Assembly: GCA_951640195.1 (NCBI GenBank) | Contig: OX621163.1 | Span: forward strand, 3,720,001-3,784,000 | DNA: 64,000 nt | Source: Porpolomopsis calyptriformis | Taxonomy: Eukaryota; Basidiomycota; Agaricomycetes; Agaricales; Hygrophoraceae | Direction: 5' to 3' | In this document: positions 1,352 to 56,774 of the stretch, in pieces | Position numbering within the stretch: the stretch's first letter is position 1 | How the letters are laid out: each line of letters opens with the position of its first letter | Translations under genes and position numbers: made by a program | The notes under the pieces: model-generated | Databases searched by the model: none | What the model was told of the DNA's origin: nothing | What the model saw: the letters and a program-made list of their open reading frames with translations, nothing else

Positions 1352-1373
1352 CTAGCTTGGGTTTTTATTCACG

Positions 1374-6285: not shown

Positions 6286-6334
6286 TTTCTTTCACTCTTA
6301 CTTATTCTTTACTTCAATTCAAAAAATTCATTAT

Positions 6335-7099: not shown

Positions 7100-7254
7100 T
7101 GTTAATGAAGAAGGGTGGTCTGCCAGACCTTATTATATATGTTCCAATTTCAAACTCCGACGATTCTCCGAAATCCGCCACATTCCGAAACTCCAATTTC
7201 TTGGTCATTACCAAATATAGTCAAGTCCAATATGCGGTCTCGAGGGCTTGCCCT

Positions 7255-22313: not shown

Positions 22314-22568
22314 TGTTAGGTCCGAAGTTTCGGAGTTGATTTTGGAGATCGGAGTTGAATAAACGACGGGACTTAGTCAATATTCTGTCTACAGATACAG
22401 GAAAAAACGCAGTATTTATATACCTGCTAGATAATTATATCTGAGACATAGTGACGACAGAGGACGTCATAAGTAGGAAACATGTGAAAAGTACAGAGTG
22501 TTCAGAGTTGTTGGAGTTATTGGAGTTCATCGGAGTTCATCGGAGTTCATCGGAACTGGGATGTAACA
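22314..22568 (-). repeat. 3' LTR of A-prime
   Basis: 255 bp, the minus-strand form of the family A LTR. Next to it on the element strand the purine tract AAGAGGGAGATA (22570-22581) precedes it. Confidence 0.95.
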
Positions 22569-22737
22569 GTATCTCCCTCTTAAGGGAGAGCCCTCGAGAC
22601 CACATATTGGACTTGACCATGTTTGGTAATAACCAAGAAATCGGAGTTTCGGAAGGTGGCAGATTTCGGAGAATCGTCGGAGTTTGAAATTGGAACATAT
22701 ATAATAAGGTCCAGTGAATCACTCTTCTTCATTAACA

Positions 22738-23506: not shown

Positions 23507-23553
23507 ATAATGATTTTTGAATCAAAGAAAAGGATAAATAAGAGTGAAAGAAA

Positions 23554-26500: not shown

Positions 26501-27240
26501 CATTTAGATTTTCCTTCACTGAAAACATCAGCATAGTCATGATATTCTGGAGGAACTTTCACATAAAACATAGGGTCTGGAGGAACATCAGAGATGTTAA
26601 CAGAACGCGCTTTTGAAATATCAGCAGTTTGAAGAACAAATGATTGAGATCCTTCTTGCTTGCTAGCATGTACAAATGCGGCTGCCGAAATAATGGACAC
26701 AGGAGGAAGTGAAGTCAGAGTTGGAATCAGAGCTGGAGGGTCAAGCGGAGTTGCCTCAGAGAGTATGGGTGTCGATGATGAAGACAAATACATCAGTTTT
26801 GGTGTCCCAAATGAAATACTGCTTGTAACCCAGTCAATCAACGGATTGTAGCGGGTAAGCCAGTTGAATCCAAGAACAGCAGAACATGATGCATCCAACG
26901 GAGTGACCAAAAACTTAATATCTAGAGTTTCTCCAGACGGAAATTGGACAGGGAGGATAACTTCCACATCAATGGTTCTCCCTTGAGATCCATCAAATAA
27001 TTGGAGTTGCTTCGGAGGAAGCGGAGATGTTTTGAGCTTGTTTCGGTGAATGAAATCAAAGTCCAAGAAACAGTGTGTGGATCCTGAATTGATAAGAGTT
27101 GGAATAGATAACGAGTCGATAAATAAAGTAATTAGAAAGGAATCAGAGCAAGGAATGGAAGCGTTGAGCTTTACAATAGAAGATGCAGGAATGGTTTCAA
27201 TGCAGTCCACATTCCGTGTCTCATGCAGACTGCCTCCTAT
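23554..27240 (-). pseudogene. A-prime pol polyprotein
   Basis: Same order as in A. The protease LINSGSTHCFLD, again Asn for Asp, is at about 27080. RT MPLGLCNAPSTFQ and YLDDILIYSDN are near 26060-25970. RNase H (VVETDASDYTIAG) is near 25540, and the integrase HHCC segment (HMKHDHPIAGHFGQNK, CTMCARS) at 24850-24700. The core is HPEGDGQTEQVNQTLEQ near 24350. The chromodomain is at 23555-23760 (YLVRWEGYEGTNKETSW). Stops at 26272, 25087, 24859 and other sites are mostly TGA. The catalytic boxes of RT and integrase are present, so loss of function comes from nonsense codons and the protease change. Confidence 0.9.
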
Positions 27241-28463
27241 TTTTCCGGAGCAGCTGGAGGGGCGCTCGGAATAGGAGTAGGGGATTCCTGAGTGGATGGT
27301 TCAGTGACAGTAGTAGCACATCCAGAAGCCTTCTTTGAAGCAGAGGAACCAGACTTTGGACATTCCTTTGCCATATGACCTGGGGATCCACAAAACATAC
27401 ACAAGTTATTATCCAAACAACGTTTTCATTTGGCTGGAGTAAGCTTTCTGTCTTTTCCGAGTTTATTGGAGAGGTCAGGATGCTTCGGAGTTGAGGTAGT
27501 CGGAGTGGATTTCATAGGAGTTTTCTTGAAAGTAGAAGGTGTTGTTGGAGTTGAAGGTGGTTTAGGAGCATTCGTTGGAGGTGCCGGAGCATGACCAGAG
27601 TCCCGCTTAAGCTCTCCTTTACATTCCCAATACCTAGCATCAATCATTTGAGCTAATTCCTTCATAGCTACCAATGTGGCTGGTTTTCCGACTTGAGACA
27701 TTTGATCCTTGATTCGATCTGGAAGACCATGGTAAAAGATATGCTGCAGTGCTCCGACGTCCCATTGGACTTGAACTGCTAGCCTATTGAAGTGCACAAT
27801 ATATTTGGCGATCCGTTGATTATCAAACATCTTCAAAGATTCCAATTCCGCTTCGGCAGTTCCTATTGGATCCAAAGGTCCAAATTGGTCCTATAAATCG
27901 GAGCCAAACTCCGAGAAGTCTGAGAGGAACAATGGAGGGTTAGGAATAGTCTCCAAAAGGTAAGGTTCAAATAAAGATAACACCATTCCCTTCAGAAACG
28001 ACATAGCATAATTGACCTTAGCTTCATTGGAAGTAAACGCAGAAGGCCTATCCTTGAAATTCAATTGAAGTTGAACTAGGAAAGGTCAGAGTTTCATTGG
28101 ATCAGAGCCATCGAAAGGATCAGGCTCTCGGACTTTGGATTTTGTGGGTTTAGCTCCAGAAGAAGCTTGAGCGATGGTGGCAATATTTTGAAAAGCCATG
28201 ATCAATCTCTCTTCAGCTGTCTCCTGTTCTGGAGCTTCCTGAGCTGGCTGGACTTGAGGTGTCTCTTCAACTGAAGTTGATGCTTGACCTTGAGTGGTCT
28301 GCGGAGTTACGGGTCATAATGGATTTTCTCGATCATGAAAAGCAGTAGGGAGCCTTTCAGATATACGCATAGTCGGAGACACAGGACTTGTTTCGGAGTT
28401 GGTTGGAGATAATCGACTTCTAGTTGAAAATCCCATGAAACGTTCGAGAGTGTGTTGTGTCAT
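27240..28463 (-). pseudogene. A-prime gag polyprotein
   Basis: ATG at 28463-28461. The capsid-like part is near 28090-27610, a Pro/Thr linker follows, and the zinc knuckle is at about 27410-27360. Three stops interrupt it, including TGA at the position of an Arg codon present in A (28312). Unlike A, the stretch before the knuckle is in frame (NAPKPPSTPTTPSTFKK). Confidence 0.8.
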
Positions 28464-28485
28464 CGTGAATAAAAACCCGAGCTAG

Positions 28486-28753
28486 AGACAGAATATACTG
28501 TTAGGTCCGAAGTTTCGGAGTTGATTTCAGAGATTGGAGTTGAATAAACGACAGGACTTAGTTGATATTCTGTCTACAGATACAGGAAAAAATGCAGTAC
28601 TTATATACCTGCTAGATAATTATATCTGAGACATAGTGACGACAGAGGACATCATAAGTAGGAAACATGTGAAAAGTATGGAGTGTTCAGAGTTGTTGGA
28701 GTTATTGGAGTTCATTGGAGTTCATCAGAGTTTGTCAGAACTGGGATGTAACA
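28486..28753 (-). repeat. 5' LTR and self-primer site of A-prime
   Basis: LTR 28499-28753 (255 bp). The 11-nt site complementary to the RNA start is at 28486-28496, two bases from the LTR, exactly as in A. Confidence 0.9.
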
Positions 28754-30652
28754 GGTTATGAATCTTTAACCAATTGTGTCTGAGGAAAATCTGAGATTTG
28801 CCGAGGTTTGTGATTCCAAAGTTAATCCATTCAACATAGGTGCCGACCTTGAGCTCAAGCGCAACCATTTCAGAGATGGGTCCCTCAGAGTTGGGTTGTC
28901 CATCAGCATTGTGTACTGGAATGGGTCAAGCAAGCTTAGTTGTGTGAAGGTCGTTTTCATGGACATACTTGATATTGATACATGAACCTTCACAACTGCT
29001 GTCAATGAGAGCAGTAGCAAGGTGTTCAGCATGATTATCCAAGGTAGTGATGACAGTCTTGAGGGTCAATTGATTCCTTGAGCCTGAGCCATGAATGAAC
29101 ACGTGAGGTTCCTTGAGTTTGTGGAGGGCTCAGATAGTGCTCTCCATTGAGAGGGCATTGATTTGATCAATAGTGGTCTGAGTCATCTCCAGCGATTGGG
29201 CAGGGTGAGACCATTTTTGAAGAATTGGGATTGCATAATTAGCCTGTTCCTTAATAGCCTTAACGATATCTAAGGGGGAAGAAAGAGAGTCAATGTCGAT
29301 TGAATTGACAGAAGGGAGAGACAATGATTTGGGAAGGGGAGAAGTAGGGGGTTTGGGGCACTCAGTGGTCACATCTGGCATAGACAGGGTGGGACAAGTT
29401 TGATTGACAGACTTGTTGGTATTAGATAATGTATATGCTGTTATAGTAGTACAAAGAAGGGAAAGAGGGGAAGGGGTAACAAAGGGGGTGTCTGATACTG
29501 TCTGTTCATAATGCCAAAGTAAACATGATTCTGTTGAATAGAGCAAGCGCATCTCTATTGACTGTTGCCAAAATCCTAATCATTCAAGTCAGGGGTAGGT
29601 TTGTCGATGCTGTGTTCCTCTGCAGAAAGGAAGTTCATCAGCTCCAAAATTTCGTCAATGGTCAGTTCGTGCTGGAGAGTGCAAACGTTAACCTTTTTGA
29701 GCTCCTATGGACAATCTTGGTGGAAGTGTCCAATCTGACCACAGTTGTAACACTGATTGGTCTAACACATCTTGCTCAGGTCCATTGGTAAACCCTGACC
29801 TCCATGGATGGTGCCTGACAGCACTTGTTTGTCCTGGGAGAGGGGAGGATGGAAAGACAGGTGAGTAGGAGGGGCAGATAGATGTTGGCGACATTCTTGA
29901 TCTCGGAAACATTCCAACAGTTGGCCAATAGCCACAACCTTGTTGTGGTACCTGGGGTAAGTGGTGGGGAGTGGGGGCGACATGTAAATTTGATGAATGA
30001 TATCCTGGCAGACATTCTTTTCAACAATCTGGATACATTCTTTATCCTGGCCAACAAGGCCAGCTTGGTGGAACAAGAGTTCCAATTTGACGAAGTAATC
30101 TGTAATACCTAAATGTCCTTGTGAGAAATGTTCAACTTCCTCACAAGCACACTGCTCCATGGCATGGTCAGTGAAAACTACATCCAAGATGTCTACAAAA
30201 TCTTTCCATGGGCCAAGGGGGATGAGATTACTAGTGATAGGGTCTGTCTGGCCAAAGTATGCGTCCACATATTACTGGGCCCATTCGGTGGCAATGCCCT
30301 CTTTCATGTAGGACAGGGTGACCAATATCATCTTCTCGGGATCAGTAACTTCACTGCCACAAAGGAAGATGATGACCTAGTGGAACTAGTTCTTGTGGAG
30401 TTTTTTGTCGCCATTAAAAACATCGGGTTGGGCAAGTTTGATTATTTTAGAGACTGAGGCCATGGATGTTGTTTGCATGGGGGGAAGTGGATTCGAAGGT
30501 GGAGGTGGAGATGAAGAAGGGGAAGGAACTGGAGAGAAATGAGGGACAGGATTCAGTTCAGAGGGGGAGGGAGACCTTCTCAGTGGAGGAGAGTCTTTCA
30601 GTTTCTTAGGGGGATCCAGGAGCAGTTGTTGCAGGGAAGTTGGGGTGCTCAC
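28754..30652 (-). pseudogene. E gag and protease start
   Basis: Start at 30652 (MSTPTSLQQLLLDPPKKLK), Pro/Ser-rich N-terminus, then a capsid-like domain (PLGPWKDFVDILDVVFTD, HLGITDYFVKLELLFHQAGL, about 30230-30030). A zinc knuckle CYNCGQIGHFHQDC is near 29755-29710. The protease-like region follows at 29110-28760 and is cut at the A-prime insertion. Stops and frameshifts are frequent. The homologue order matches Ty3 gag. Confidence 0.75.
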
Positions 30653-39619: not shown

Positions 39620-40030
39620 TGTTATAAACTTGTTGCTGTTGAGACAGTTTTACTTCTGGGTGCTCTGTCCAAAATGATGATGATGGTCTCAAGTCCTAGT
39701 TATTGGGGTGTCTAATGAGGAATCAGACTTAAGGTCTGAGTACAACTAACTAGGTGTTTATATACTAACTACACTACTGCGGATGAGTCAGTGTTACAAT
39801 GAGGAATACATTTGGTAAGTAAAAGATAAGCATGATAACAATGTGGAGCATGTGAAAGGATGAAACATAAGTAGTCGGAAATGAAATATATCCTACTTTA
39901 GGTAAATGAAAAAGATAAGACTATAGGGAATCCCATAGTGCAATCGTGGGGAATCCCAAGCAAGATAAGATAAGTCTGACTAACTACAATGACAAACATA
40001 GAGAGAGAAGGAAAAATTATGTCCGTGACA
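39620..40030 (-). repeat. C-family LTR, minus strand, inserted in C4 integrase
   Basis: 411 bp, read on the minus strand from TGTCACGGAC to TGTTATAA-type end. Right flank GGCAG equals the reverse complement of the CTGCC that follows the LTR at 37543. Confidence 0.85.
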
Positions 40031-42460
40031 GGCAGGACTGTATGTAGTTGATAACATCTTGAGAGATGCCATCCTAAACAAAGTTTCAGAGCACCAGCTC
40101 CTTCATCTTCTCAATGCCAGGGTGTCCAGCATGGGGGTAGGTGTGGGATAGTTGTATTATGTCTGTGTGTAAAGATACTTCCTCCAGTACCACAATTTGA
40201 CCTTCAACATTGTGAACCAACCCATTGGCTTGGTCCCAAAACAATAAGGCATCCTTGATTTTCTATGGGGTCTTGTCCAGTATGGGTAGCTTGAAGTATA
40301 GTCTTGCGAAAAAGTCTGGTTTTGAAAGTTTGATGATTGAATTGATCCAGTGATCTTCTGCAATTAAAACTTCATTTTCAACCTTGCCTTTACCTTCATC
40401 AAAATAGTCCAGACATCTGGACAATCCATCAGCTTTGTTCTTTCTCCCTGGGATATACTAGATTTTGTATTCATATCTTGACAGAATTTCTGACCAATGA
40501 GCACATTGTCTGAACAATACATAAGCAATACTGAAATATTTGAGGGCAAGACTGTTGGTACAGATCAGAAGGTCATGTCTTGAACCTTCCAAGAGATGTT
40601 GCTATGTTTTAAGACAGTCTATTATAGCTAAAAGCTTGGCTTCATGAGATAGATATTTCTTTTCAGCAGGAGTTAATGATCTTGAGAGAAAGCCTATGGG
40701 TTTCCAGTTGTTTCTTTGCAGTTGAGATAGTATACCTCCTAAAGCAAATCCAGAGGCATCAGTCTCTAACCAATACAGTAGGTCTTGGTCCAGCACTTCA
40801 AGGACAGGGGTATTTGTGAGGGAGTGCTTCAAATGATCAAAGGTGCATTGGCATTCAGGGGTCCATTCCCAAATGGTATCTTTGCAGAGTAACTAGTTAA
40901 GTGGTTGAGTGATCTTTGCAAAGTCCTTGATATATTTTCTCCAGAAGTTTGCACTTCTGAGGAAGGATTGAAGTTGTTTGATGGTTTGAGGCTCTGGCCA
41001 TTCAACTATGGCTTTGAGCTTCTTGGGATTAGTTCTGATATATTCTTTCAACAGGGTCATTCCCAGATAGATCACCTCTTCCTTCTTGAATTGGCATTTG
41101 ACAGGTTTATAGGAGAGTTTGTGTTTCTTCATAATATTAAGGGTTTTGAACATCCAGTAATGCAGTTCTTCTAGATCATCTCTGCAGATGAGAATGTTGT
41201 TGATATAGATAAAAATGCAACCTGATTTTAGCACTTCAGCCAATCGCATATCGATCATCCATTGGAACATAGCTGGAGAATTTTATAAACCAAAGAACAT
41301 TACTCTTGGGACAAAGAGTCCTTCAACCATGTTGAAAGTGGCTTTCCTTTTGTCACCTTCTTTGATTCAAATATTGTTAAATCCCCATTGGATGTCCACA
41401 ACTATGAACAATGTGGTAGACTGCGACTTTGGTTGTTGAATGATTTAGTGCAAGAGTGGCAGGGGATAGTAGTCAGGAACTGTAAAGTGATTCAGATAAT
41501 GGTAGTCTTCGATTGGTCTATATCCAGCATCTTGTGCTTTCACATTGGTTTCTTTAGCTTTCTTTCCTAAGAAGAAGGGAGCAGCTTGAGGCAAAGATCC
41601 TTTGAATATCTATCCAGTGGCCATGTTTTCATCTAAAAACTTCCTCAGGAATTCTTTCTCTTGAGGGGACATTAGATAAACCATGTCAGTTTGGGGTATG
41701 AAGTTATCTCTAAGGTCAATGATGTGATTGAACTCAGAATGCAGTGGAAGGCAATCAAAGGACTCCTTGGTAAAGACACTAGTATAGTCTTTCCAATAGA
41801 CCTCCAGTACAAACTTTCACATATCTTCCTCCACTGTGCTAGCTTAAGCTTTGTCCAATTTTGAAATACTTGTGATTGCCAGCTGCGAGACCAATTCTAC
41901 CACAGAGGGCTCTGCTTCACTGCTACAATACTGACAAGAAGTCTCTTTGCCTCTGAGAGCTAGTGTTGACTTCTCCCAATCGATACTAGGGTTTTGAGCT
42001 CTAAGCCATGGGTTGCTGAGGATAATATCAATCTTGGATCCAAGGTCGGTCACTTCCAAATGGATCCTTTCAGTGTGTCCACCAGGAGCTTCTATCTAGA
42101 CATCTGTGTCAAAAATGATTAGGCCTCCTTGGTTCTCTGACCCATTGGCATTCCATACAGGGATTAGGGATTCCAAATCCAAAAGAGTAAATTTGTAATG
42201 AGTTGTGAAGGTCTTGTCCATAAAGTTTCCAGAAGCTCCACTATCAATCAGACACATGGCAGGGACACATTAGCCAGTATCTGAAGCTTTGATCCAAACA
42301 TCCATTGTGAGTCCTAAATTGCCCTTTTCAATAGCACCAAGAATTCAAAATAGGTTGCATAGGGTAATAGTACATTGAGTAGTATGGTTAGTAACATTAA
42401 GTGAATTGTCTGAACGTTTCAAAAACCCTGGGACTTCAAGTCCATTGCCAGCCTCTTCTT
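40031..42460 (-). pseudogene. C4 pol: protease, RT, RNase H, integrase N-terminus
   Basis: Minus strand. The protease block (GYPWL-like, read SNPWLRAQNPSIDW) is near 42005. RT has the catalytic box read as YINNILICRDD near 41205-41180, so both Asp of YIDD are Asn. RNase H starts at LETDASGFALGGILSQLQ (40760), keeping its Asp. PGRKNKADGLS is near 40430. The integrase HHCC domain at 40200-40080 is cut at 40031. Several stops, mostly TGA or TAG. Confidence 0.85.
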
Positions 42461-43763
42461 TCGATCATCTGACCAATTGCATATACCACATTTCACTATA
42501 TCTAACAGAGTTTCACTTGTTGCCAGTGTAGTGGGCGAGCTGACATTCTCCATGTTAGGCTCAGCAGTAATGACACATATGTCTCGGCCTCATCCTTGTC
42601 CTCATCCTCAGTAACCTCCTCAATGTGAGGAAGAGGTATTGGATAAATTGGTCTCATTACTGGTGACTTGGCTGGGACATGTGTTCACGAAATGCCCAGG
42701 TTGGCTGCAGGTATAACAGTTTCCATGTGGGATCGTAAGGGTAGAAGAAGAAGACTCTTCTCTTTTGACAGTGGGGGCTGCTAACATTTGACAGGTCACT
42801 ATTGCAGCCACAGTTAATCCTCAGGCAGGAAAGGGGTTGGAGTATTGTGGTTGGGATGTGGAGGACTGTTTCTGTAAGGCTAGGATGTCTTTCTGGTGTT
42901 AGTATCATATTGTTGCATCCTTCCATTCTTAGAGGGTGGTAGGGACAGCAGGGAGTTGGTAAATGAATTCAATGAACTCACTATCAAGTCCAGCTTGATA
43001 AAGATCAATGAGGGTGGCATCGTTGAAACCGGTGTCAACCTATAAAGTGCCAAAGCACAGGTTATAGTCTTCTATCTTCTTTCTTCCCTGTTGGAGATTC
43101 TTAATGTCATTATGAGTATGAGACTGTCTGTCACTTCCTTCAAATGTTGATTAGAATTGAACAATAAATGCAGCCCAAGTGGTAGTCAGGCCTGTCCAGT
43201 TTACAGTTCTCATGTCATTAGTCTCCTTTTCAGCCCAGGTTTGGGCCATGGTCCCCTTCATGAAGGAAAGGGCAAAGGGAATCTTGTGTTCATCGCAGTA
43301 TAGTTTTCCCATAAAATACAATTCACAGCTGTTAATAAATTTGTTGACATCCTGCTGTCAACCAGTAAATTCATCTGGTTTGGCTATCTTGATCTTAATA
43401 GTGGGAGCAGTAGGAGGTTGAGGTTGTGGTTGCAGTGGGGGCTAAGGCTGAGCTTGGGTGGCAAGTTGTTGGTTGAGATTCTGAATCTCTATTGCCTGTT
43501 GCATGTTAGCAGCCTGGAGAATACCCACCTCTCTCTGCAAGTCATTCATAGCTGTGAGAATGTCAGTAAGGTTGGGGGCAGGGGGATTAGTGTGAGAACC
43601 CATTGGTGGTGGTGAAGGTGAAGGTGAAGGTGAAGTTAAAGGTGAAGAAGGTTGAGTAGGTTGTTGAAATAGGAAGGGTTGATATCTGATAAAAGGAGGA
43701 GTGACTAGCTGTTGTGACTGGGCAGTGGCAAGTAATCGAGTTGTTTCACTTTGGGTTCTTCCT
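42461..43763 (-). pseudogene. C4 gag
   Basis: Minus strand, interrupted by D at 43764. From the N-terminal side: SPSPSPPPMGSHTNPPAPN (43610), with a GAAGGT microsatellite behind the Ser-Pro repeat, then a coiled coil LQREVGILQAANMQQAIEIQ. The capsid-like domain is at 43340-42960. A zinc knuckle CYTCSQPGHFVNTC is near 42715-42674. Frame broken in several places. C5 (59960-61026) is the better copy. Confidence 0.75.
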
Positions 43764-43975
43764 TGTACCAGATATTACTGTTACAGTGTGTACATTAGGG
43801 ATGTAGTCCTTATGTATTGGTGTTTGTACCAGAGAGTAGTATATAGGCAGTATTTACCCTGATTTAGGTAGTTCTTTTTATATCTTGCCACTGCTCATAC
43901 CAGGTTTACACATATCCAATAGATATTGGTTGTATCCAGCTGGTTGTGAGCACTGCAAGATCAAGAACTCTTACA
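43764..43975 (+). repeat. 5' LTR of D
   Basis: 212 bp, begins TGTACCAG (TGTAACAG in the 3' copy) and ends ACTCTTACA. TATATAGG at about 43860 is a likely promoter. Confidence 0.9.
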
Positions 43976-45613
43976 CTTTTTTGGATATCCAACATAGACT
44001 GTTGGATTACCCAAAATGGGCACAATGATGGCGTTGTTAAATGACGTTGTTGATTTTGGTACAGCCACTGCTAACACTAACCCCCTTGCACTCAAGACCA
44101 ACATGTAGCATCAACACACGCATGTCAAGGGTGGTCCTGGACCACCTAGGAACTAGCCTCTGCAGACTAGCAGGGCCCCATTGGCAATGACGAGGTGCTT
44201 CAACTGCTACATCATCAGCAGCCCTGATGCCGCTAGCACTTGCACTTCGTGAGTACCTACTTCCCAGAGCCTCACAGCTCCCCAAGATGGTCCCATGAAT
44301 GCATGGAAACCAAGAAGGATGGAAGAGGACGCAAGTGAGAGGTAGAAGGTGTGCCACGTCATAGACAACTGACATCCCTCCAGCTACCACCTATGTCCCC
44401 TCCAGCGACCTACCACCCCCCGCAACTCCCCAATGTCACACATCATCCCTGCAATGCAGACAAATGACGAGAATGAGGCCACCAAGGCCAGCAACAGGCA
44501 CATGAAGTGCCACATCACTGCCCAACAGTGGTCCTGACTCTCCCACCTACATCCGCGACTAGCTGCGCAAGCCCAACAACCACAGTGCAGGTCTCCCCGA
44601 GCCTCAGGGCTCCCCCAGGCATCGACGGAAGGCTTGGCCAGCCAACTGCAAAGCCCAATGAGGCCAGCACTGGGCACAGGAAGTAACATGTCACTGCCTA
44701 TAGGCGGTCCCAACATCTACATCCTGCCCCCATGTCGAGCCCAATGGCTCTCGCGATGATACCCATGATACCCAACAATGTCGATGACGCACAGCCGAGC
44801 CCAATGGCTCTGGAAGCAATGATGATGACAATGGAGAACATTGTATGGTAGCAGGGGCTCGGCTCCCACTCCCCCACGCTCTCTTAAGCGCGCTCTGCAC
44901 ACTGTTCCAGTGTTCAGCCATCCCAGACCCAGGGAAGGCCCCCCAGACACTGTCTGATCAATAACAGCAGGTTGGGGCAGTCTCAGTACCGCCAACAATG
45001 GAGATGAGGACATGGGTGCCCCAGGCACCTGTCTATGAGTGCACGTAGCGAAGGCTTTACGCCTAGTGCCACGTTTACATCCCCCCATTGCTAGCACGTC
45101 ACTGTGCTCCGAGGCTGGATCCAGACATGGATCCAGTGCAACTATCGCCAATGCAGTTACCACACCCACTCTGTGAGCACACGGATGCACACGCCAATGA
45201 CGACGGCATGAGAAGCCAACAGGAGTGTGAAGGATGCTACGTCAATGACGTGCACATCCCTCCAGCCCCTCCTGATGGCTACCTCCCATCTCCAGCAACA
45301 TCCCCTTGTTGCCCTACACTCTCGCGACACTAACGATCATGACAACAGACCCCAATGAGGCAAATGACTGCACACGATGTGCCTAGTCATAGCCCAATGC
45401 AGGCTCCACCATCAGCCATTGTCAATGCATGCGATACGCATGCTGAGCCCTATGGCTCTTGTCCCTGGTCCAGAGGAAGCCCCTCAAGCCACCTGAGAAG
45501 ACAGCATAGAGGGTGGACAACCAGAGAAGGACCACTGGTGAGAATGGTGGCCCTAGTGCCAATGAGCACCCAGAGATGGCAACATCCACTCAGGACGTTG
45601 CTCACCATCCTGC
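43976..45613 (+). other. D interior, left part: G/C-rich non-coding with many short hairpins
   Basis: No supportable gene. Perfect inverted repeats include 43988-44006 (TCCAACA), 44130-44146 (GGTGGTCC), 44828-44844 (ACAATG), 44899-44913 (ACACTG), 45015-45029 (GGTGCC), 45115-45136 (CTGGATCC), 45364-45390 (ATGACT plus GCACA) and 45427-45443 (GCATGCG). GAGCC and GGCTC with a 4-nt loop occur four times (44599, 44737, 44797, 45445). Two stretches beginning near 44472 and 44656 are diverged repeats of each other (AATGAGGCCA, then GGCACA, then CACTGCC). Confidence 0.65.
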
Positions 45614-46003
45614 TGTTATAAACTGGTTGCTGTCGAGACAGTTTTACTTCCAAGTGCTCTGTCCAAGACAATGATGATGGTCTCAAGTCCTAGTTATTGG
45701 GGTGTCTAATGAGGAATCAGACTTAAGGTCTGAGTACAACTAACTAGGAGTTTATATACTGACTACAATGCTGCGGATGAGTCAGTGTTACAACAAGGAA
45801 TACATGTGGTCAAGTAAAAGATAAGCATGATAAGAGATGGAGCATGTGAAGGGATGAAACATAAGTAGTTGGAAATGAAAGATATCCTATCTAAGGTAAA
45901 TAAAAAAGGTAAGGCTATGGGGAATCCCAAGTAAAGATAAGACAAGTCTGACTAAGCTACAATGACTAACATAGAGAAAGAATGAAAAATTACATCCATG
46001 ACA
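45614..46003 (-). repeat. Solo C-family LTR inside D
   Basis: 390 bp on the minus strand. Flanks CCTGC and CCCAT do not match, so the target duplication is lost or this is a recombinant. Confidence 0.85.
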
Positions 46004-46843
46004 CCCATGTTGTGAATGCGCAGCCATCCCAATAGCAGCAGCATCAGCAGCCAGATCTAGACACAGATCTGGCATCACCTATGCCCTGGATGTGTAATAC
46101 ATCTGGGCAATTAACTACTTCCCAGGAAGTAGGTTATATATTGGGTGCAATTGGCCCCAATGGCCTGATCCAGACATGGATCAGGTGCCATCTACATCCT
46201 AGATGTCACCTGAGAGGAGTACAACTATGTACCCTCATTGAACAATGGGTTGAAGCTTGCGAAAGCTAAAACCCTTGAAGAGGACATTAGATACCCTCAT
46301 CACCTGTCAGACATAACAGGTTAACTAATATTGTGTGGGTAAGCAAGATACCCATCACAAGTATTCCTAGCTGAGGACAAAAAGGTCACGGCAAAATAAA
46401 AGAGGTGACAGACCTAGTCACTATAGAAAATTAGAGACACTGTGTCTCTCATTGGGAAAAGGCATCATAATGGTGCCTAATCTCAGAGGATTCCTCTGTT
46501 ATGGATAGAGGAAGTAATGAACAACCTTCAGAAGGCAAAGGCAAAGATTGGCACTATATAGAATCACATGTGTACCCTCTGAGAATAATATTTTTTGGAG
46601 GGGAAGGTTTAACCCCTGGAATTTAATTTGGTAGGGGAATACCGGTAGTATAGCGAAGCAGAGCTGAGCTATACAACTAATAAATGTACATGATGCAGAG
46701 TAGTGTCATGAGAAATATGTATATTTTTTAGAATGTATATATTGTTCAGGATCATGTCTTGATTCTGATGTACTTTTTCGAAGCCTTAATTTCAGGCTCT
46801 TCTTGATCGATTGAACCCCTTGGGTTAATTTGGTGAGGGAGGA
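46004..46843 (+). other. D interior, right part: nearly continuous run of hairpins
   Basis: Between 46051 and 46535 about a dozen hairpins follow each other: 46051-46072 (CCAGATCT), 46083-46108, 46115-46132 (CTACTTCC), 46140-46161, 46164-46185 (CCTGATCC), 46189-46205 (CATCTA), 46214-46236, 46236-46247 (CATTG), 46254-46267 (AGCTT), 46302-46321 (ACCTGT), 46327-46365 (15 paired bases with two bulges), 46433-46449 (AGAGACA), 46460-46478, 46484-46498 (CAGAGG) and 46525-46535. No reading frame stands out. Confidence 0.65.
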
Positions 46844-47055
46844 TGTAACAGATATTACTGTTACAGTGTGTACATTAGGGATGTAGTCCTTATGTATTAG
46901 TGTTTGTACCAGAGAGTAGTATATAGGCAGTATTTACCCTGATTTAGGTAGTTCTTTTTATATCTTGCCACCACTTGTACCAGGTTTACACATATCCAAT
47001 AGATATTGGTTGTATCCAGCTGGTTGTGAGCACTGCAAGATCAAGAACTCTTACA
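46832..47055 (+). repeat. Polypurine tract and 3' LTR of D
   Basis: GGTGAGGGAGGA at 46832-46843 followed by the 212-bp LTR 46844-47055. Confidence 0.9.
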
Positions 47056-47096
47056 TTCCTAGACTCAGTGAGGTACCTAGTAAAGGACAAGCTTAA

Positions 47097-47360
47097 CTAG
47101 CTTCCTTGTTTGGGTCTTGCAAGATTCAGGTTTGTGTCACAACTGTAGTTGCAAGTCTTCTCGTTAATCACAAGGCAGGCCTTGGAGCTTAATAAGTCCA
47201 GGAGGATATAGAAAAAGGTTCTGACAGGAACATCTTTGTAAAGGGTAATGATTCCTTCAGTGTTAAGTTTGACTTCTACAAAGAAGTTCTGTTGTGGGTT
47301 AAATCCGTTACGTGCCTCTGCTGAGAGTTTAGGGAATATAGGCATGAACAGTTGGCTCAA
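47097..47360 (-). CDS. Unknown reading frame upstream of C4 gag
   Basis: 87 codons on the minus strand without a stop, beginning MSQLFMPIFPKLSAEARNGF. It has an NFFVEVKLNTEGIITLYKD segment and cysteines in CNYSC; its end runs into the C4 gag leader (ARPKQGS). It may be the end of a captured gene. I see no known motif, and the start is uncertain. Confidence 0.3.
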   Translation of the reverse strand: MSQLFMPIFPKLSAEARNGFNPQQNFFVEVKLNTEGIITLYKDVPVRTFFYILLDLLSSKACLVINEKTCNYSCDTNLNLARPKQGS

Positions 47361-47594
47361 TATTTTTTGAGTTTATGTTTCTCTTTCCTTATTCTGATGG
47401 AAAGGAAGTCTGATGATTCTGATTGCGTTCGTGCTACTACAAGTAATCTCACAGGAGGACGAAGTGATGATCCGCTTCGTCCTCAGGGTTTATATAGTAT
47501 TTCTAAAATAGGAGTCATTATGAGTCAGCCTCCGCAGTCACCCCATTTTCTATTGTTCACAGCCTCCGATTCAAGGTTTGTCATTGTTCCTAGT

Positions 47595-47660
47595 CATACT
47601 GCGGAAGGCTGTGTACTTCTGATGACTCAACTCTATTGGGCATAGCCCTTCCGCAGTATG
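47595..47660. other. Inverted repeat, 16 bp
   Basis: Arms 47595-47610 and 47644-47660, with one extra C in the right arm, 33 bp apart. It lies about 140 bp before the TATA box of the downstream gene. Confidence 0.6.
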
Positions 47661-47797
47661 AGGCTGTGTTGTCTTATGACTGGTTCCTATTGTTCTTCTG
47701 GTCATGAGATCGCCATTGTTTCTATCTCTTGCCTGGCGTATTGGGTTTCTCTTCTTTGACTGAGGAACCCCCTTTTGGTCCTCCCCTTGTTCGTGGG

Positions 47798-47807
47798 CAT
47801 ATAAAAG
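47798..47807 (+). promoter_or_regulatory. TATA box of the gene at 47855
   Basis: CATATAAAAG about 57 bp before the ATG, giving a predicted start of transcription near 47830. Confidence 0.6.
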
Positions 47808-47854
47808 GTGTGGAGTTGTATCCCTATGCTTTAGTTCAATCCTTGTCAATCATC

Positions 47855-48687
47855 ATGACTCCCTCCTACCAAGGCCACTACGTCCGATTCTTCAAGCAGT
47901 CTGGAGTGGTGCACCGCACCGCTCCTGTCTTCCTTGATTGCGATTCTTTCCACTACTACCTTCAGCACACCCCTTCTGATGCCGACCTCTGTTGGTCCTC
48001 CTTCTCTTGTTTTGCTTGCGGTGGCCAGTACAAAGTCAGGAAGTGTCCGTATGTTCGCTAGCCAATCCAGCATGTTTGTGGCTTGATAGAGGATCCGCTT
48101 GGTATGTATCTTGTTTTGTCTTTATTAGTCTGTGTTTGTTGATAATAGGCTTTTCTCTTTTTAGCTTGGGATGATGATGCCCCTCCCCCTAGTTCCAAGC
48201 TCCCTTTAGAGGAGCGAGTTGATTGGAGTTCCGATCATTGGGGGCATCCCCTCCCCTTTGCTGATCCTAAGCCTGAGGACTGGGCTGCCAGTCCCCCTTT
48301 CCGCCCTTGGACGCCTGGTCCATTAAGTCCTCTATCTAGTGGTAATGCTCTCAACTCTCTCGCTCTTCTTCGTGATTGCTAATCCTTTATCTTTTAGTTG
48401 AAGATTTGTCCTTGTCATCAACCAATGTTAACGTTAAGATTGAGGAAGAGGAAGTTCCTCCTAGTTTGTTGTGGAGTCCTACCAACAATTGGTTGGGTGA
48501 AGAGGCGAGGAAGATTGCAATGGGTTTTGTCGAGGGGAAGGCTGCTGAGCTGCAGGCTTCTGGTGGAGATACCAATGGGGCAATTTATTGGGGTAATAAG
48601 TTGGCCGCATTAGATGGTCAAGTAGTTTCGAGTTTCGTAGAGTTCTTGAGGGATAGCATGGTGCAGGAGATTGCCAAGATGGACTAG
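47855..48687 (+). pseudogene. Three-exon unknown gene, antisense inside C4 (one stop)
   Basis: Exon 1 47855-48101, intron 48102-48164 (63 nt), exon 2 48165-48341, intron 48342-48397 (56 nt), exon 3 48398-48687. Phases agree and the model gives 237 codons with a single internal TAG at codon 69 (48059). Features: CWSSFSCFACGGQYKVRKC, a cysteine-rich patch; a Pro-rich middle with many Trp (WDDDAPPPSSKLPLEE, WGHPLPFADPKPEDW); an acidic IEEEEVPPS; and a helical C-terminus ending VQEIAKMD. I do not recognise the family. The 3' flank (48690-48835) reappears at 59101-59267, including the last six codons, so the gene exists in at least two places. It is on the opposite strand to C4. Confidence 0.65.
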
Positions 48688-49373: not shown

Positions 49374-49913
49374 GTGCCTGACCACTTGTTGCACCCCCTT
49401 GTTTCTCCCATCACTACCTACCTCCATCTCTAACAACAACAATGGCATCTACTACCCATCACATCCCCCCCTCAACTCCCCCCTGTATACCCCCTATTCC
49501 CCCACTGACATTTTGTATCACAGCAGGGTATCCCTGTGCAAGCATGGGGACCCCTTTATAAATACATTGTATAATAGGTATCACGCATATGTTAATAGTG
49601 CTAGGCACCACTGGGATGTCCGCATGCAATCAGATACTTCTTCAGAAGATGATGTATCTTTTATATACCCTGCCAATGCATTCCCTTCTCTTTACATGGG
49701 TGAATTAAGTTAGAATCAAGTCAAAGAAAAGGCTTCTCCCTCTCTCATGGATCCTTCAATCTAGGAAGACATATCCAATACCTCTAGCTCCCCTCAATTA
49801 GCTCACTATCCAGAGCAGACCCTGCTCAACCAGCTACAGGCAGAACCTGTACTCAGCTCACCAGAGCCATTTACATCCTGAATACAGTATCATAGCCAAG
49901 GGGGAAGGCTTGC
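49374..49913. other. Spacer between C4 and B2, no clear gene
   Basis: 540 bp, C-rich at first. A plus-strand open stretch at 49399-49713 (MFLPSLPTSISNNNNG, ending YMGELS) has low-complexity composition at its start and no recognisable motif, so I do not call it a gene. Confidence 0.4.
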
Positions 49914-50123
49914 TGTAAGGATTGGGGTTAAGTTATCACACTTTTCTCAATACTAGGATATACACAGAACCAATGTAATGGGGCAATCTGGTATAAGCAG
50001 GAGTGGGATGTAAACTTATTGTTTACCTAAGTGTAACTAGTACTTAAGGTAACCAGTACAAATAAGTACAAACACAGCACAGTAGCTGTATGTAACAGAT
50101 CTGTTACATCCTCCCCCTTTGGC
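49914..50123 (-). repeat. 3' LTR and purine tract of B2
   Basis: 195-bp LTR 49914-50108. On the element strand it is preceded by GCCAAAGGGGGAGGA. Confidence 0.9.
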
Positions 50124-50277
50124 TTAACTGCTGGGGTAAGTTAAGCCTGAAAGCCAGGCATAGTACACATTAAGAGTCCACATAAAACAATCTATATAAA
50201 ACATAGAAAGAACTAAAAAAAAACAGAAAACTAATGCCATAGTAATACAACTGTGGTGAAGACTACATTCATCCCTA

Positions 50278-51290
50278 GTCTAGCAGGAAGTCAGGTATCT
50301 CTGACATGCTCTCAACACATTCCTGAAGCAAAACTGGCTTAGGCTCAGGGATCAGTGAGCCAAGGGATACTTGCTCACTATTGCTACCTAGTGGTGCAGC
50401 GCTGTCTTGTGAATCACACTGTGAATGGCATCGCAAAGTGCAGGACAAGTCCCAGCCAGGGGGTGGTCCATGCTTAGCAAGCATGTACATAGTTTGTCCA
50501 CACCAAGTGAATAAGTTAGATGCATTAAATGCATCTTAGGTGATAAGGCCTGCAGATGGGGCAACAGACTCATCAGTGGATGAGATATGAGATGGGGGAT
50601 GTCAGTGGGGACATCCATCAGGAAACAAGGTATCATTTCCATCACGAAGTGACAGCGGGATGCTATTCCTGTCAAGGGTACTATGCACAGACTCTCTGTA
50701 CATCTTGAGGGTGGATAAGTCTGAGACATTACCCTGAAGGGTGTCCTTGAGCCATTAAAAGGCATATATGAAGGTGTTATCTACCTGTTCGAATGTAACA
50801 CCTTGTCTGGCAAAGAACAGAATGAGGGATTGTTCTGTGACATTAGATGATCCAGAGTACCAGGCTGGTTCTCTGGGGGGTTCTGCTATAGAAAGATTTG
50901 ATCCCATCACAAGTGATCGATAGTAGCTGGGCATTCCAAACAGGAGGGCTGCTGCTCTGATGTATTGCAACCTTATCTGGTTGGCATCTGTCAATGATCC
51001 AGCAGGAGTATGGGGCTTAGGTGACTTTGGCTTGTGTCAACTAACCAGAAGCATCCTGTGGAGGCTTCACAGTGAAGTGCTACCATCTCATTCAATGTAC
51101 ACTCCAGGGTGTGCAGCAAAGCCTCCACAGGATGCTCATGGTGGTTTATATAAAACCAACAAGCCCACTCTTCAGGGGAGCTTGTGGCAGTTAGCTGAGA
51201 TGGGTTAATCTATCCATGCACAGAAGTAGGTGGCACTGGGACAGGTGCATCAGTGGAATCACCTGAGGCCTAGGTGGGAACTGTTACGAT
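50278..51290 (-). pseudogene. Unknown degenerate reading frame in place of integrase in B2
   Basis: Minus strand. One frame reads from about 51290 (STDAPVPVPPTSVHG, SSPEEWACWFYINHHEHPVE) to about 51040. It then shifts frame and continues from 51020 (KSPKPHTPAGSLTDANQIRL) through SIAEPPREPAWYSGSSN, RQGVTFEQVDNTFIYAF and SLRDGNDTLFPDGCPH to PEPKPVLLQECVESM and a stop at 50278. Three internal stops (50760, 50616, 50539) are of types expected from C-to-T change. It has protein-like composition but no domain I know. It could be a gag-like or captured accessory protein. Confidence 0.45.
51050..51136. other. 18-bp perfect inverted repeat with nested hairpins
   Basis: Arms 51050-51067 and 51119-51136. 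Inside are CTTCAC/GTGAAG (51065-51077) and ACAC/GTGT (51099-51112), so the segment could form a branched structure. Confidence 0.6.
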
Positions 51291-51372
51291 CGCATTCTAG
51301 GCTGCCCCTGTTATAGACTGGTCACCTGGTCCACAGATGTATACTATTCAGTCATAGTTTGTTATCCTTTTC

Positions 51373-53103
51373 TTATCTCGTATCTTTGACTGGATTTATC
51401 AGATTATGATCCCAAGGGAGATCATCCTTTTCTGGGTCTAGATGTATATCTACATCTACATATTCACTCATAGGATGAGCATCATACCATGTATCACTTT
51501 CATAATAACGTGACAATGCATCAGCAACTTTATTCAGTTGCCCTTTGACATATGTTATGTCAAAGTCAAATCTTGACAGGTATTCCATCCAACGAGCTTG
51601 TCGGCTAGACAGGCGTCTTTGCATCTTGAAAAACTCAAGAGCTTGATAGTCGGTCACAACGTGAACCTGATATCCTATCAGTTTGTCCTCCCATTTAAGG
51701 AGGGCTTTGAGTATTGTGATTGTTTCATGCTCGAACGTATGATAATTCCGTTGAGCATCCGTAAACTTTCGCGACATAAATCCTGCTGGTCTGCAGGTTT
51801 TCCAGGTAGGACCTTGTCCGTACATTGCACCGACGCCATGTATTGAGGCATCGCAGATGACCCATATGGGTTCATCTTTCTTGTGACGTATCGGCACTAG
51901 TATAGGTGTCGAGTAGCATATCTGCTTTATCGTTTCAAAGCATTTATCGTGGATTGGTCTCCACGCGAATGGTTGCCCATTCGCTGTCATGGCTGCTAAC
52001 AGCCCTGTATAACTTGAGATATCTGGCAGGAAATGCGCCAGATATTGTATGAGTCCTATAAATTTCTAGACATCATTGTAATTGTGTGGTTGTCGCCAAT
52101 CGCATATTCTCACCATTTCATTGGCATCTGCGTGTAGCCCTTTGTCATCTATCTTATGACCTAGACAGTCAATTACATTGGCATACAGTTCGCACTTCTC
52201 CTCTTGGAGGTAGAACTTGTATTCTTGTAGTTTACCAAACACGAGACCCAAGTGTTTTTTGTGCTCCGAGATGGAAGCACTATAGATGAATAGATTGTTG
52301 AGATAGGCATGCATGAATATGCCAATAAAATCCCCAAAGATCATTGTCATTACCCGCTGGAATGTAGCAGGTGCATTGCAGTCTCCTATCTGCATTGTAT
52401 GGCTCACGTAGGTGCCATATATAGTTGCAAATGCGCTGTTATGCATGTCTTCAGGTACTGTCTATACCTGCTCATAAGCATCTGATAGGTCGATTTTTGA
52501 CCTTATTGTTCCACTGGCCACATCATATCTGATCTGGTCTTAGTCAGGAAAGGGTGTAACGTCCTTCAAAGTATTGTCATTGCGTTTATGACAATCAATT
52601 GGTGTCCGTAGAGTGCTATTCTTCTTTGGAATGCACAGCATCAGAGCTGCTTGATCGGTTTGCACTGATTCCCACCATCCAGCACGCGTATACCGTGCAA
52701 TCTTCGCCATAAGCTGAGGCTTTAGTGAGTCCGGACATCTCAGAAGGTAATAATTGTACTTCTTATCTTTGTCGATAAGAGGTATGTGGTGATTGACACC
52801 ATGTACCAGAGGTAATTCCTCGGGTACTCCATGCATGATATCTTGGCATGCTTTGATCCATTTGGCTCGAAGGCGAGGTCTGTCCTCATGTGTGAGGGAC
52901 ATTTCGGTCCTTTCGTTCAGTTGAACAATTTGAGCTACACTCAGTAGCATCTTTTCATTAGACCCAGTAGGGGTACTCTCTTTTATTTTCTTTGTGTTCG
53001 CGTCTGAACACCTTTTCTTGAAAACTCCTTGACAAACTCTTTTGGTTTGTTGGTTTCTATAACTGTCCGGATGTCTTCCCTGCACAACCTTTCGGTTCTG
53101 CAT
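51373..53103 (-). pseudogene. B2 reverse transcriptase and RNase H
   Basis: The RT N-terminal part is at 53103-52540 (GWWESVQTDQAALMLCIPKK). The fingers and palm follow with GDCNAPATFQRVM and the catalytic box read as HAYLNNLFIYS near 52295, where YLDD is expected. The thumb has CLGHKIDDKGL. RNase H (IWVICDASIHGVGAMY) is near 51850 and ends with VKGQLNKVADALSRYY at about 51510, the usual end before integrase. Stops at 52066, 52540 and 51373. Confidence 0.85.
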
Positions 53104-53110
53104 CCGCTAG

Positions 53111-54232
53111 TCATTCAGCAGACCTTTGTTCAGTTCGTCGCAGCGATTGTCTGTGCATGATTTCGTCATTTTCCTCCCCTTCAGTAAGAGTGGGAGCAGC
53201 TACCCTGCGGACCATTATCTGGTTCGCGCTAGGCTCTAGCATAATTTCGAATTCACGCATGAAACCGATGCCAATTATAGCGTTGAATCTGTCAATATTT
53301 ATGATATCGAAGTAGTATTTCTTTGTGATACTTTCATATCGCACGGGACAGTAAGTACCATAGTTAATCTGCAATCTGCTACTGCGGCATCCTAGTTGGA
53401 TCGGAACAGGGTCCTTCAACTGATATATTTTCAAATTTGTGACTCTCACAAATTCTGGGCTAATGGCATCAGAGGTGCTGCCTGTATTGAACATTACAAT
53501 GGCTACAAGGCCGTTTAATTCCATGCAAGCTACTAAAGGCCTTACTTTCGTGCTCAGCTTTGCTGGGCGGTCCTGCTGTCTGCTGGACTTATGAACCCAT
53601 GATTTGGGTTGAGTGTCCTCTTTGAACACTTGTTTGTCATTTATAGATGCTATAAATTCACGAGCAGAGTTACTCGTTTCTCTTATTGAACGTATTTGTT
53701 CGTTGACGATGTTATTGTCATCTTCCTCTTGTGAGTACTCCTCATACTCATCATATTCTTGGAGGTGATACTCTTCACCTTGTGATGTATACTGCGATCC
53801 TTGTAAAGGATCATCCTCCTCTTCCTCAACTACGATTCTGTAGTTGTTGTGAAGCTCATCTGCCTCTTGGTCATTCTCATCGATAGCATCTTCTGCTACC
53901 ATTTTGAATGCATCCTCCCCCTCTTGGATTGCTGCCATTCGGGGTTTCCCAAAATTGGGACATTTCGGATTGGTCGCATAGTAGCCAAATTTGCCACATG
54001 CGTAGCATTTCACACCAGACAATCCTGTCTGGTTCTTATTATATGCCGGCGCCTGTGGCATCGGTTTACTTCCAGAACTGCTAGGTCTATTTGGCAGTGG
54101 TCTGTAAGGCTGACGGTTGTCAGTTGGTCTATACGGTCGGTATGGACCTTGTTTGTTAGCATACTTATTGTATGCTGGCTTCATATACAATGGCGTCTCT
54201 TTATTCATCATCTGATTTGTTGGCTGCCGCAT
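53111..54232 (-). pseudogene. B2 gag C-terminal part and protease
   Basis: 373-codon open stretch: basic N-terminus with YRPYRPTDNRQPYRPLPNRP, the knuckle-like KCYACGKFGYYATNPKCP, acidic linker EEEEDDPLQ, and a protease with MFNTGSTSDAISPEF (Asp of DTG changed to Asn; B1 keeps Asp). It ends with RRVAAPTLTEGEENDE. Longest uninterrupted frame of family B in the window. Confidence 0.8.
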
Positions 54233-56245
54233 ATTCGCGGTTGCTTTAGGCTGACTGGTTACTCCAGATGTCGCCTTGCGTCACTCATCATAGCGATGCT
54301 TTATTCGAATGCTCTCTTCAACACGTCGAGCAACTTTAAGGATCGTCTCAAGTGACGAGGTTTCAGTGGTAACACCTTTCTGGACAACTGCGTTGGTTAT
54401 CCTTGCAGGTAGACCCAATAACAATTGGGTTTTAAATGTATATGAGTCAGGCTTGTGTATCATATGACCTGCGTACCTCTCAAGGTCATAGAAAAATCCT
54501 GAGACACCACCTTCTGTGGTGTACTTTCTCGAATAGAATTTCGTCGTAGCATCCTGTATGGATACTTCATGAATGAACCGGTCGTACAGTCCGGTGATGA
54601 CCTCTTTAAATGTCCATTAGCATTTCTGCCTAGACATGCTGTCGACATTGTCGTTGAACCATTGTCTTGCTTTGTCCGCAAGATAAATAGCTGTTAAAGC
54701 GATACACTCTGGCTTAGCATTAGGTCCAGCGTAGTTGGACAATTTCAACCATCTCAAGAATGATTGAAGCTGCCCATTGAATTTCTCAATGTCCTCCTCA
54801 CCGCTATACTCTTTTGGAGTAGGCAGTTTAGGTGATGAGGTTCAGAGACCGGATGGGTTTCCTTTCAGTGGTTTGCCCACTTGTTCATCAATTAATTTAT
54901 AATATTTACGATGAATGTCTCTGAGGTAATCAGAGCGTCGATCTTTCCCCTCATATTTATGAGGTTTATGGCTATGACTTCTGTGTTGTATTGTTGTTTT
55001 TGACGTCTATTTAGACGTTCTCTCACTACCATGTCTGGTAGCATCAGATGGTCGATTTCTCGACTGGTCACTTCCAGTGTCCATCATTTTGCTACAATCA
55101 GACTCATCATCAGAAGACGATCCTTGATCTGGGTCATCTGAATCACTGTTGTCTGACTCCAGAGGCGTCGAAGGCGATGCCTTGATCATCCAGGCCAGAT
55201 CTTCTGGTTTCATGGATGTGGCCATTTCTCAACCTTTGGATGGCCACTCTATCCTTGAGTGTGAATGTGCCTGGTCTCAAGGCTGCTTCATTTTCTTGTT
55301 CGAACAATCTGTTCCAGTCATTCCTTTTCTTACTTCCATGTCGATGTTTATCGACTTGATCAGCCGCAGCTCGCCGTCTCTGATAGATGGAACTCGCCTC
55401 GTCTTCTTGTCAAGGATGGCGAAGCTCAGCTTTTGCTTGTTGCAGAAGTTCGTCTTCTTCATCCCTATCTAGACGAATAGTTGTATCCATCTTATTTCGA
55501 CGGGTGTTGTTACTATTCTTACGCACCATAACCTTGTTAAGGTCGTTGGCTAGCTTCATGAATTCATCATGACTTATTCTGCCCATTCTTGTCTGAACGA
55601 GTGCATTGACCCTATCAACTATGTCAGAGAGCGTCTCGCTCGGTGCCTCGCAGTTCTGCAGGCACTTTTCTTTTCGTCTCTTAGTATAGGTCACAGTCAA
55701 CATCTGACTGGGTGTGGGCGACGGGTCTCATTGCTCATATTGATCATCTATTTCATTGTGCTATAACAGATTTAACATTTGATGAATGTATACTCATTCA
55801 TTCAGGTTTTGTGACGAGGAAGGGACTCCTGTCCTTGTTTGACCCTCAGTGAGGGTGTGTATTAACATATTAAGTGTTGGGTCGATTGTCATACTTACAC
55901 GCTGACTCCTCTCTTTCCGTAAGTTGGGAACTGCCATCATCTAAGTTGGCACGATGTCTTCATTCACTCTGGGGTGAATTTATGGCCAATGCTGGCCATC
56001 TTTGGGTGTTGCTGAGGTTGTGACGTGGCACACTGGAATCAGCGATGGCACTCATCTGCGCCGTTCCCAGGTCGTCGTCATCAGGCGGTTTGCCTTGCAA
56101 GTTGCGCGCCATTGAGGCCCGCGTGATTCGAGTCTTTGTGTGGGTCTTCATCATTGACAGAGGCCGTGTCATCGACAGGGAAGCTTTTTCAATCAAGGTT
56201 GATTTACACAGATATTCCACAATTTCTTGTGGATGTGCAAAAAAG
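54233..56245 (-). pseudogene. B2 gag N-terminal and capsid part
   Basis: Broken frames in order from 56220 (MEYLCKSTLIEKASL), 55703-55410 (VDRVNALVQTRMGRISHDEF), and 54680-54281 (SYTFKTQLLLGLPARITNAV). Collinear with 8400-10420. Stops and frameshifts throughout. Confidence 0.65.
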
Positions 56246-56440
56246 TGTAAGGGTTGGGGATAAGTTATTACACTTTGCTCAATACCAGGATATGCACAGA
56301 ACCAATGTATTGGGGCAATCTGGTATAAGCGGGAGTGGGATGTAAACTTATTGTTTACCTAAGCATAACTGGTACTTAAGGTATCCGGTACAAATACGTA
56401 CAAACACAGCACGGTGGCTGTATGTAACATATCTGTTACA
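56246..56440 (-). repeat. 5' LTR of B2
   Basis: 195 bp, closest to the B1 LTR at 10425-10619. Confidence 0.9.
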
Positions 56441-56774
56441 GAATACCAGTAGCAGGTTTTGCCACAGAGTGGCCCTATCAGCCTTATACTTATATTGCAT
56501 TATATGATCAATTCATTTAGTTCATGCCATTTATTGTAAGGTACAAGATGTTTTTTAGTAGACTGGATGTCTAATAAATACATGTGATACTGATATGAAC
56601 ACTAAGTCTAGTGCACAACATGAGAAAAACTTAGGACATGCATAATTGATGAAAGTGGGGAAGAGGCATGATTGAGAGTATGAAAGCAAATGAAAACATG
56701 AATGTGAGGATTGATGCAATAGCAAATCAGCAAGAGGAGATGAAAAAAAAACAATAAAGGCTTAATATTGGTTC
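56441..56774. other. A/T-rich spacer right of B2
   Basis: About 330 bp without coding or repeat signal that I can support; a poly-A run lies at 56741-56750. Confidence 0.4.

Follow-up and report, generated by a model that had tools for sequence, protein, structure and literature searches.

LARDs and TRIMs are LTR elements that lack genes and carry well-conserved RNA structures, and one TRIM, Cassandra, is such an element with a conserved predicted fold (both as described in passages of PMC7215508). The element analysed here, D, resembles a LARD (e.g. Sukkula of barley) in being flanked by LTRs and having an interior without gag-pol; LARDs are thought to be moved in trans. Among the features of a LARD, D shows an LTR pair with a target-site duplication, an interior of several kb without gag-pol and a conserved structure. 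Unlike the LARDs, D resides in a host of fungal type, its sister family D2 has an open frame running through the structured part, and the structure of its lineage consists of many small local hairpins, which also tile a gene-bearing element (gypsyA). D resembles Cassandra in being a gene-poor LTR element whose predicted fold is conserved, but in Cassandra the two LTRs pair with each other as one super-hairpin and there is hardly any interior, whereas small hairpins tile the 2.9-kb interior of D. With 2868 bp between its LTRs (43976-46843), D differs from the TRIMs, which have almost no internal domain. Structured gene-poor LTR elements are known from plants (LARD, TRIM), and the frame of D2 and the tiled gag-pol relative go beyond the anatomy of a LARD. 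A literature search, mostly among papers outside subscription journals, returned no report of a gene-bearing gypsy lineage that is tiled with hairpins through its coding sequence.

D occupies positions 43764-47055 of the window, the 64,000-nucleotide stretch of DNA that was analysed (C1:3720001-3784000 of the 33.5-Mb genome). As originally predicted, it has an intact LTR pair (two LTRs of 212 bp, 97% identical) and a TTCCT target-site duplication on either side. Its parts are:

43764-43975, plus strand: 5' LTR
43976-44180, plus strand: hairpin-bearing leader after the 5' LTR (stem counts, comparison with D2)
44181-45613, plus strand: left interior, GC-rich and decayed, with a smaller hairpin excess
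45614-46003, plus strand: solo LTR of a non-D family, nested in D
46050-46535, plus strand: dense hairpin array (stem counts, folding, paired changes)
46544-46843, plus strand: 3' interior, ending in the purine-rich GGTGAGGGAGGA directly before the 3' LTR
46844-47055, plus strand: 3' LTR

Relatives of the D LTR (the best 40 of 138 candidate matches in the genome were scored) start with TGTAACAG..CTGTTACA and end with CTCTTACA, and GGTGAGGGAGGA is PPT-like by eye. The leader contains three hairpins, ATCCAACA/TGTTGGAT at 43987-44007, GGTGGTC/GACCACC at 44130-44146 and CTCTGC/GCAGGG, the first and third of which are almost identical in sequence in family D2. The left interior shows, in part, 65-73% DNA similarity to D2. 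The nested solo LTR, which the original prediction had overlooked, has relatives within the window (its segment 45614-45810 is 92% identical to 39620-39816), and it is absent from the D copies on C11, C4, C1 and C12, which are uninterrupted at the insertion point. Neither of the two longest frames in the interior (174 and 117 aa, minus strand in each case) matches a Pfam model, in line with the claim that D lacks a gag or pol motif. No Rfam family reaches the cut-off anywhere in the window, which rules out a known RNA family as the source of the structure. Family D2 is the sister of D, which is itself decayed and poor in genes.

Stems were counted as perfect helices with loops of 2-12 nt and compared with 100 dinucleotide shuffles. 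The D interior (43976-46843) contains 21 stems of at least 6 bp (7.3+-2.5 in shuffles), nine of at least 7 bp (1.9+-1.3) and five of at least 8 bp (0.5). Thus, the predicted surplus of stems of 7 bp or longer is real, and the interior has 3-5 times as many stems of at least 6 and at least 7 bp as the shuffles. The excess is strongest at 46051-46535, where a dense hairpin array had been noticed: 19 stems of at least 5 bp against 5.0, 10 of at least 6 bp against 1.2+-1.0 (shuffle maximum 5) and five of at least 7 bp against 0.4. Additional stems had also been claimed for the left part (43976-46050), and they are there, with a weaker excess (10 of at least 6 bp, 5.3+-2.0 in shuffles); there is none at 46536-46843 (1 vs 0.8, stems of at least 6 bp). 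Folded as sense RNA, 46051-46535 reaches -180.4 kcal/mol (shuffles -125.5+-6.3, z -8.75), bearing out for this segment the expectation that D folds below shuffled controls; z is -5.79 for the antisense RNA and -8.29 for the same segment folded with DNA parameters. A reported hairpin of 15 pairs is found in this fold, as an interrupted helix near 46327-46365.

The hairpin part of D has six copies in the genome: those in the window, on C9 (100%) and, with 90-93% identity, on C11, C4, C1 and C12. The remaining matches that were scored, 24 of 30, are confined to the 3' end or to short pieces. The C9 copy forms one block with its flanks, 98-99% identical to the window, so it was left out as an independent witness, leaving five independent copies of this family (D1). 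In the copies on C11, C4, C1 and C12 the hairpin part is more conserved than the left part (90-93% vs 83-85%). Two 5' pieces of D are found elsewhere in the genome (87-89%). The duplicated block spans 42264-48555 of the window and lies inverted at C9:334046-340309; the RNase H frame of gypsyA has a 99% match close to it. An inverted pair of D LTRs is present twice on C9 (1490499-1491675 and 1519057-1520233), both times with a start-to-start spacing of 965 bp.

Family D2 shows 65-79% DNA similarity to D over the aligned pieces. It was sampled in five copies, four with both LTRs (96-99% identical within pairs) and one with an LTR cut at the fetch border; a sixth copy was added later. The interiors of the five contain 29-41 stems of at least 6 bp (5.7-8.0 in shuffles). 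All five carry a frame of 230-307 aa (289-307 aa in four) with an acidic tail at its end. A tblastn search of the genome with this frame matched 17 places, in four of which it is stop-free across the whole query span; the rest are interrupted or partial. None of 869 candidate proteins from a 5.8-billion-protein database scores against the frame, and Pfam gives nothing above the cut-off for three copies. Near its C-terminal end this orphan acidic protein (L063:2396-3316, L061:2591-3511, L062:2023-2889) has repeated ADEY-SA-type motifs. Of the region upstream of the D2 frame, D1 retains a remnant (15 of 26 residues). On C2 there is an older relative, which has a 423-aa frame with about 30% identity to that of D2 and is tiled too. 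Under permutation of synonymous codons the number of stems of at least 6 bp drops from 16 to 3.6 in the D2 frame and from 13 to 3.8 in the C2 frame, and 0 of 200 permutations are as high in either case; at a stem length of at least 7 bp the C2 frame shows no significant excess (3 vs 1.1; 24 of 200 as high). Between the frames of D2 and D3 (78-80% DNA identity), 8-10 of 16 stems are kept, and others are replaced in a different register (e.g. TTGCCA/TGGCAA for TTGAAGC/GCTTCAA).

A 92-nt segment was chosen for covariation analysis because it is alignable between D1 and D2. It contains three hairpins, compared in five D1 and six D2 copies. In these stems 96.4% of the cells pair, as opposed to 32-40% when the partner is slid by 1-3 columns. 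Both sides have changed in 10 of 25 pairs, and 0 of 500 shuffles reach that count or the covariation score, a figure that is not a probability because the copies within a family are related. Further types of pairs are not above shuffles (17 vs 17.2). Paired changes thus preserve the three stems, and D1 and D2 share a conserved RNA secondary structure of three hairpins over 11 copies and two families. The compensatory changes sought with the original prediction are therefore present, both among the copies of D and in D2.

The gypsy elements of the window that bear on the limits of the tiling are:

49840-56442, minus strand: gypsyA, a hairpin-tiled Ty3/gypsy element with RVP_2 and RT_RNaseH matches over the cut-off
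7524-10621, minus strand: larger part of a second gypsyA copy, tiled (33 stems of at least 6 bp vs 5.7)
1-1082, minus strand: remainder of the second gypsyA copy (12 stems of at least 6 bp vs 2.2)
1083-7523, plus strand: unrelated gypsy element used as a control, untiled (19 stems of at least 6 bp vs 15.7)

The insertion at 1083-7523 apparently split the second gypsyA copy. The enzymes of a Ty3-type element are found in gypsyA: its window copy matches retroviral-type protease and RNase H models, and L070, a gypsyA copy on C5, has database relatives with domains for RT and RNase H; 564 of these relatives reach E <= 0.001, and 120 were listed. Some of the 120 listed are from named agaricomycetes, from which we infer that the host is an agaricomycete too; proteins from Peniophora, Pleurotus and Trametes are 60-65% identical. 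A search of viral contigs yielded no relatives of gypsyA. L070 has integrase motifs by eye. Both gypsyA and D start with TGTAACAG, have a 26-nt stretch with an 88% match across the LTR end and leader, followed directly by a hairpin (by eye), and end in a purine-rich 3' segment. These shared termini make gypsyA a candidate autonomous relative of D, and we infer that gypsyA and the gene-poor families D1, D2 and D3 form one Ty3/gypsy-related lineage. A first scan of the whole genome yielded 890 RT_RNaseH candidates, 150 of which were scored; among the candidates are gypsy frames of more than 1000 aa without stops.

Tiling of gypsyA extends through its genes. The element contains 66 stems of at least 6 bp (15.3 in shuffles), and its gag-pol frames contain 35 (10.1 after synonymous-codon permutation; 0 of 200 as high). 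Its mean folding z along the element is -2.6, with 63% of 30 windows below -2, compared to -1.0 and 17% of 29 windows in the control gypsy. L070 is likewise tiled (42 stems vs 7.8), and across D1, D2, D3, the C2 relative and three gypsyA copies there are 7.9-13.6 stems of at least 6 bp per kb (z 5.9-13.4). A relative of the control gypsy at 22314-28754 is not tiled (22 vs 15.0). Nine other gypsy loci, which represent eight families by DNA identity (94% between L078 and L079, less than 77% for all others) and none of which matches gypsyA, have the expected number of stems in eight cases; the ninth, L076, is above it (15 vs 8.4; 0 of 100 codon permutations as high). Tiling as a trait of all gypsy elements is rejected by these eight loci, and as a trait of the whole genome by eight arbitrary loci with z of -1.1 to 3.1, six of them below 2 (L083 2.0, L087 3.1). 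E. coli rpoB has 15 stems vs 8.2. Among the gypsy loci tested, tiling is confined to the gypsyA/D lineage, and since it is common to D and the gene-bearing gypsyA, a whole mobile-element lineage is seemingly built to fold. The original prediction that D has hairpins instead of genes is not supported, as the hairpins of D2 span an open frame and the neighbouring gag-pol element gypsyA is similarly dense: hairpins do not substitute for genes, and tiling tracks one lineage. The accompanying view of D as a non-autonomous element with a structured RNA stands insofar as gag-pol is not recognisable and the element is strongly structured, but this structure is not specific to D.

Clues to the strand of the folding molecule are mixed, yet lean toward sense RNA. 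The three D1/D2 stems have G-U in 17 cells and C-A in 8. Wobbles common to D1 copies favour G-U (3-6 vs 0-1 C-A, stems of at least 7 bp), and those common to D2 copies show no such preference (4-6 vs 4-5 at 7 bp or more; 11-16 vs 18-19 at 6 bp or more). In 150-nt windows the sense strand has the lower MFE z in 8 of 8 tiled sets; the margin ranges from 0.09 to 1.21 and is within error in three (gypsyA -0.09+-0.15, A2 -0.13+-0.27, the D2 copy on C8 -0.11+-0.23). The same sense-antisense difference is +0.08 to +0.32 at five untiled loci of the genome; for E. coli it is -0.5 (rRNA) and -0.20 (rpoB). With windows of 200 nt the left part of D (-0.04) and the D2 copy on C10 (0.00) show practically no difference, and the untiled control gypsy is also sense-leaning (-0.30+-0.24). 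Loops are A-richer than shuffled loops in 7 of 8 tiled sets, which are not all independent. AGAC loops account for 5 of 18 in D1, 8 of 37 in the D2 copy on C1 and 5 of 39 in L070, where the enrichment is weak, whereas GTCT loops number 0 in each; AGAC is not significant in gypsyA (3 of 58), C2 (1 of 24) and D3 (0 of 18). The pair that closes a loop is C-G in 44 cases and G-C in 15, a preference identical on both strands. The stems are mostly perfect Watson-Crick helices. With gypsyA, D2 and C2 pooled, the excess of stems containing G-U equals that of stems containing C-A (35.6 vs 31.5), whereas in E. coli rRNA only G-U exceeds expectation (19.1 vs -0.1 for C-A). A large part of this C-A excess in the pooled set may have arisen through decay once the copies had inserted.

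We put the probability that selection for a densely folded, packaged sense RNA explains the tiling at roughly one half. In this reading the sense RNA of the lineage, coding parts included, is tiled with local hairpins of 6-11 bp and D is a decayed non-autonomous LTR retrotransposon of the gypsyA/D1/D2/D3 lineage, its hairpins presumably kept through selection on the folded RNA. Most likely, the Gag of the lineage would package and compact RNAs bearing short stem-loops; as it would carry only RNAs studded with them, gene-poor passengers such as D would have had to remain tiled. RNA viruses can have genome-scale ordered RNA structure, in which the folding energy of coding and noncoding regions is below that of sequence-order controls. 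Over most of its length gypsyA similarly folds below shuffled controls, but here the structure belongs to a Ty3/gypsy retrotransposon lineage and is concentrated in perfect short stems. In viruses with dispersed packaging signals, these consist of many short stem-loops across the genome. Such signals are known in RNA viruses (PMC6281560); the D lineage likewise has many short stem-loops, with Gag as their putative partner, and the AGAC loop motif that D1, D2 and, weakly, L070 share is at most a suggestive parallel. A second code of a structural kind running through the entire RNA, in which dozens of short stem-loops with A-rich, partly AGAC loops would be dispersed Gag sites and tiled LTR passengers could be packaged without coding, is a tentative and on balance doubtful extension.

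The strand, wobble and one-arm-change results place sense-RNA selection ahead of the next contender, which is rather unlikely: the reverse transcriptase of the lineage would switch onto its own nascent strand at quasi-palindromes and perfect imperfect inverted repeats, and passengers would be tiled because the same enzyme copies them. Template switching is described, in passages of PMC8794818, as creating or repairing perfect stems as units and is proposed there to create and maintain RNA hairpins; the scope of that paper is cellular DNA replication and RNA genes, and its main text contains neither 'retro' nor 'reverse transcript'. The dominance of perfect Watson-Crick stems, the equal G-U and C-A excess, the turnover of hairpins in register, and tiling that spans unrelated sequences of one lineage while sparing other gypsy families all fit such an enzyme. 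So does the change of one arm in broken stems (34 vs 27.8 expected in eight tiled comparisons; control 6 vs 5.4), but this excess is small, a nearby inverted copy explains 0 change clusters in 17 comparisons by a strict test that would probably miss short events, and A-rich, AGAC-bearing loops on one strand are not predicted; both tests of template switching are low in power, as the copies differ mainly by changes that resemble decay. It is improbable that the folding molecule under selection is DNA, either single-stranded cDNA or extruded cruciforms (acting e.g. in strand transfer or nuclear import). The DNA-parameter z nearly equals that of RNA and the stem mismatches are strand-symmetric in the pooled set, but folding and loop composition have a modest sense bias. 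Stems of 6-9 bp are also short for stable cruciforms. CpG decay, in which the CpGs of a palindrome turn independently to TG or CA and three of four outcomes still pair, has a very low probability as the main source of the paired changes. TG/CA differences are frequent among copies and five of the 10 pairs with two-sided changes have a CpG context in some row, yet the other five (5-24, C-G to A-T; 6-23; 9-20; 40-58; 72-81) have no CpG in any row, although for the transition pairs among them a CpG may have been lost from all rows. CpG decay is also unable to generate an excess of perfect stems; this excess, together with the pair that went from C-G to A-T, refutes it as a full explanation, and a partial one remains. 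Chance, base composition or codon usage without function is almost negligible, for the mild excess in L076, L087 and rpoB contrasts with tiled loci where dinucleotide shuffles and codon permutations abolish the excess, refuting this explanation there.

Because gene-poor families share the tiling with a relative that bears gag-pol, the cause of the tiling is directly testable. Either Gag selects folded RNA or a polymerase writes hairpins, and by either answer the biology of a retrotransposon lineage can imprint a pattern across unrelated coding and noncoding DNA.

Other repeats were noted in the genome. A weak Helitron_like_N match, below the cut-off, lies at 14026-14754 of the window. L014:1-1480, L021:1733-3212 and L045:340-1480 share another repeat dense in hairpins, which has arrays of GATAA and stems of the type TGAGTCA/TGACTCA; over most of their length these flanks do not match D, D2 or gypsyA. 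Adjoining the C2 relative, L066:25-419 is an array of inverted CAACTGTA..TACAGTTG units that is self-similar in both orientations.
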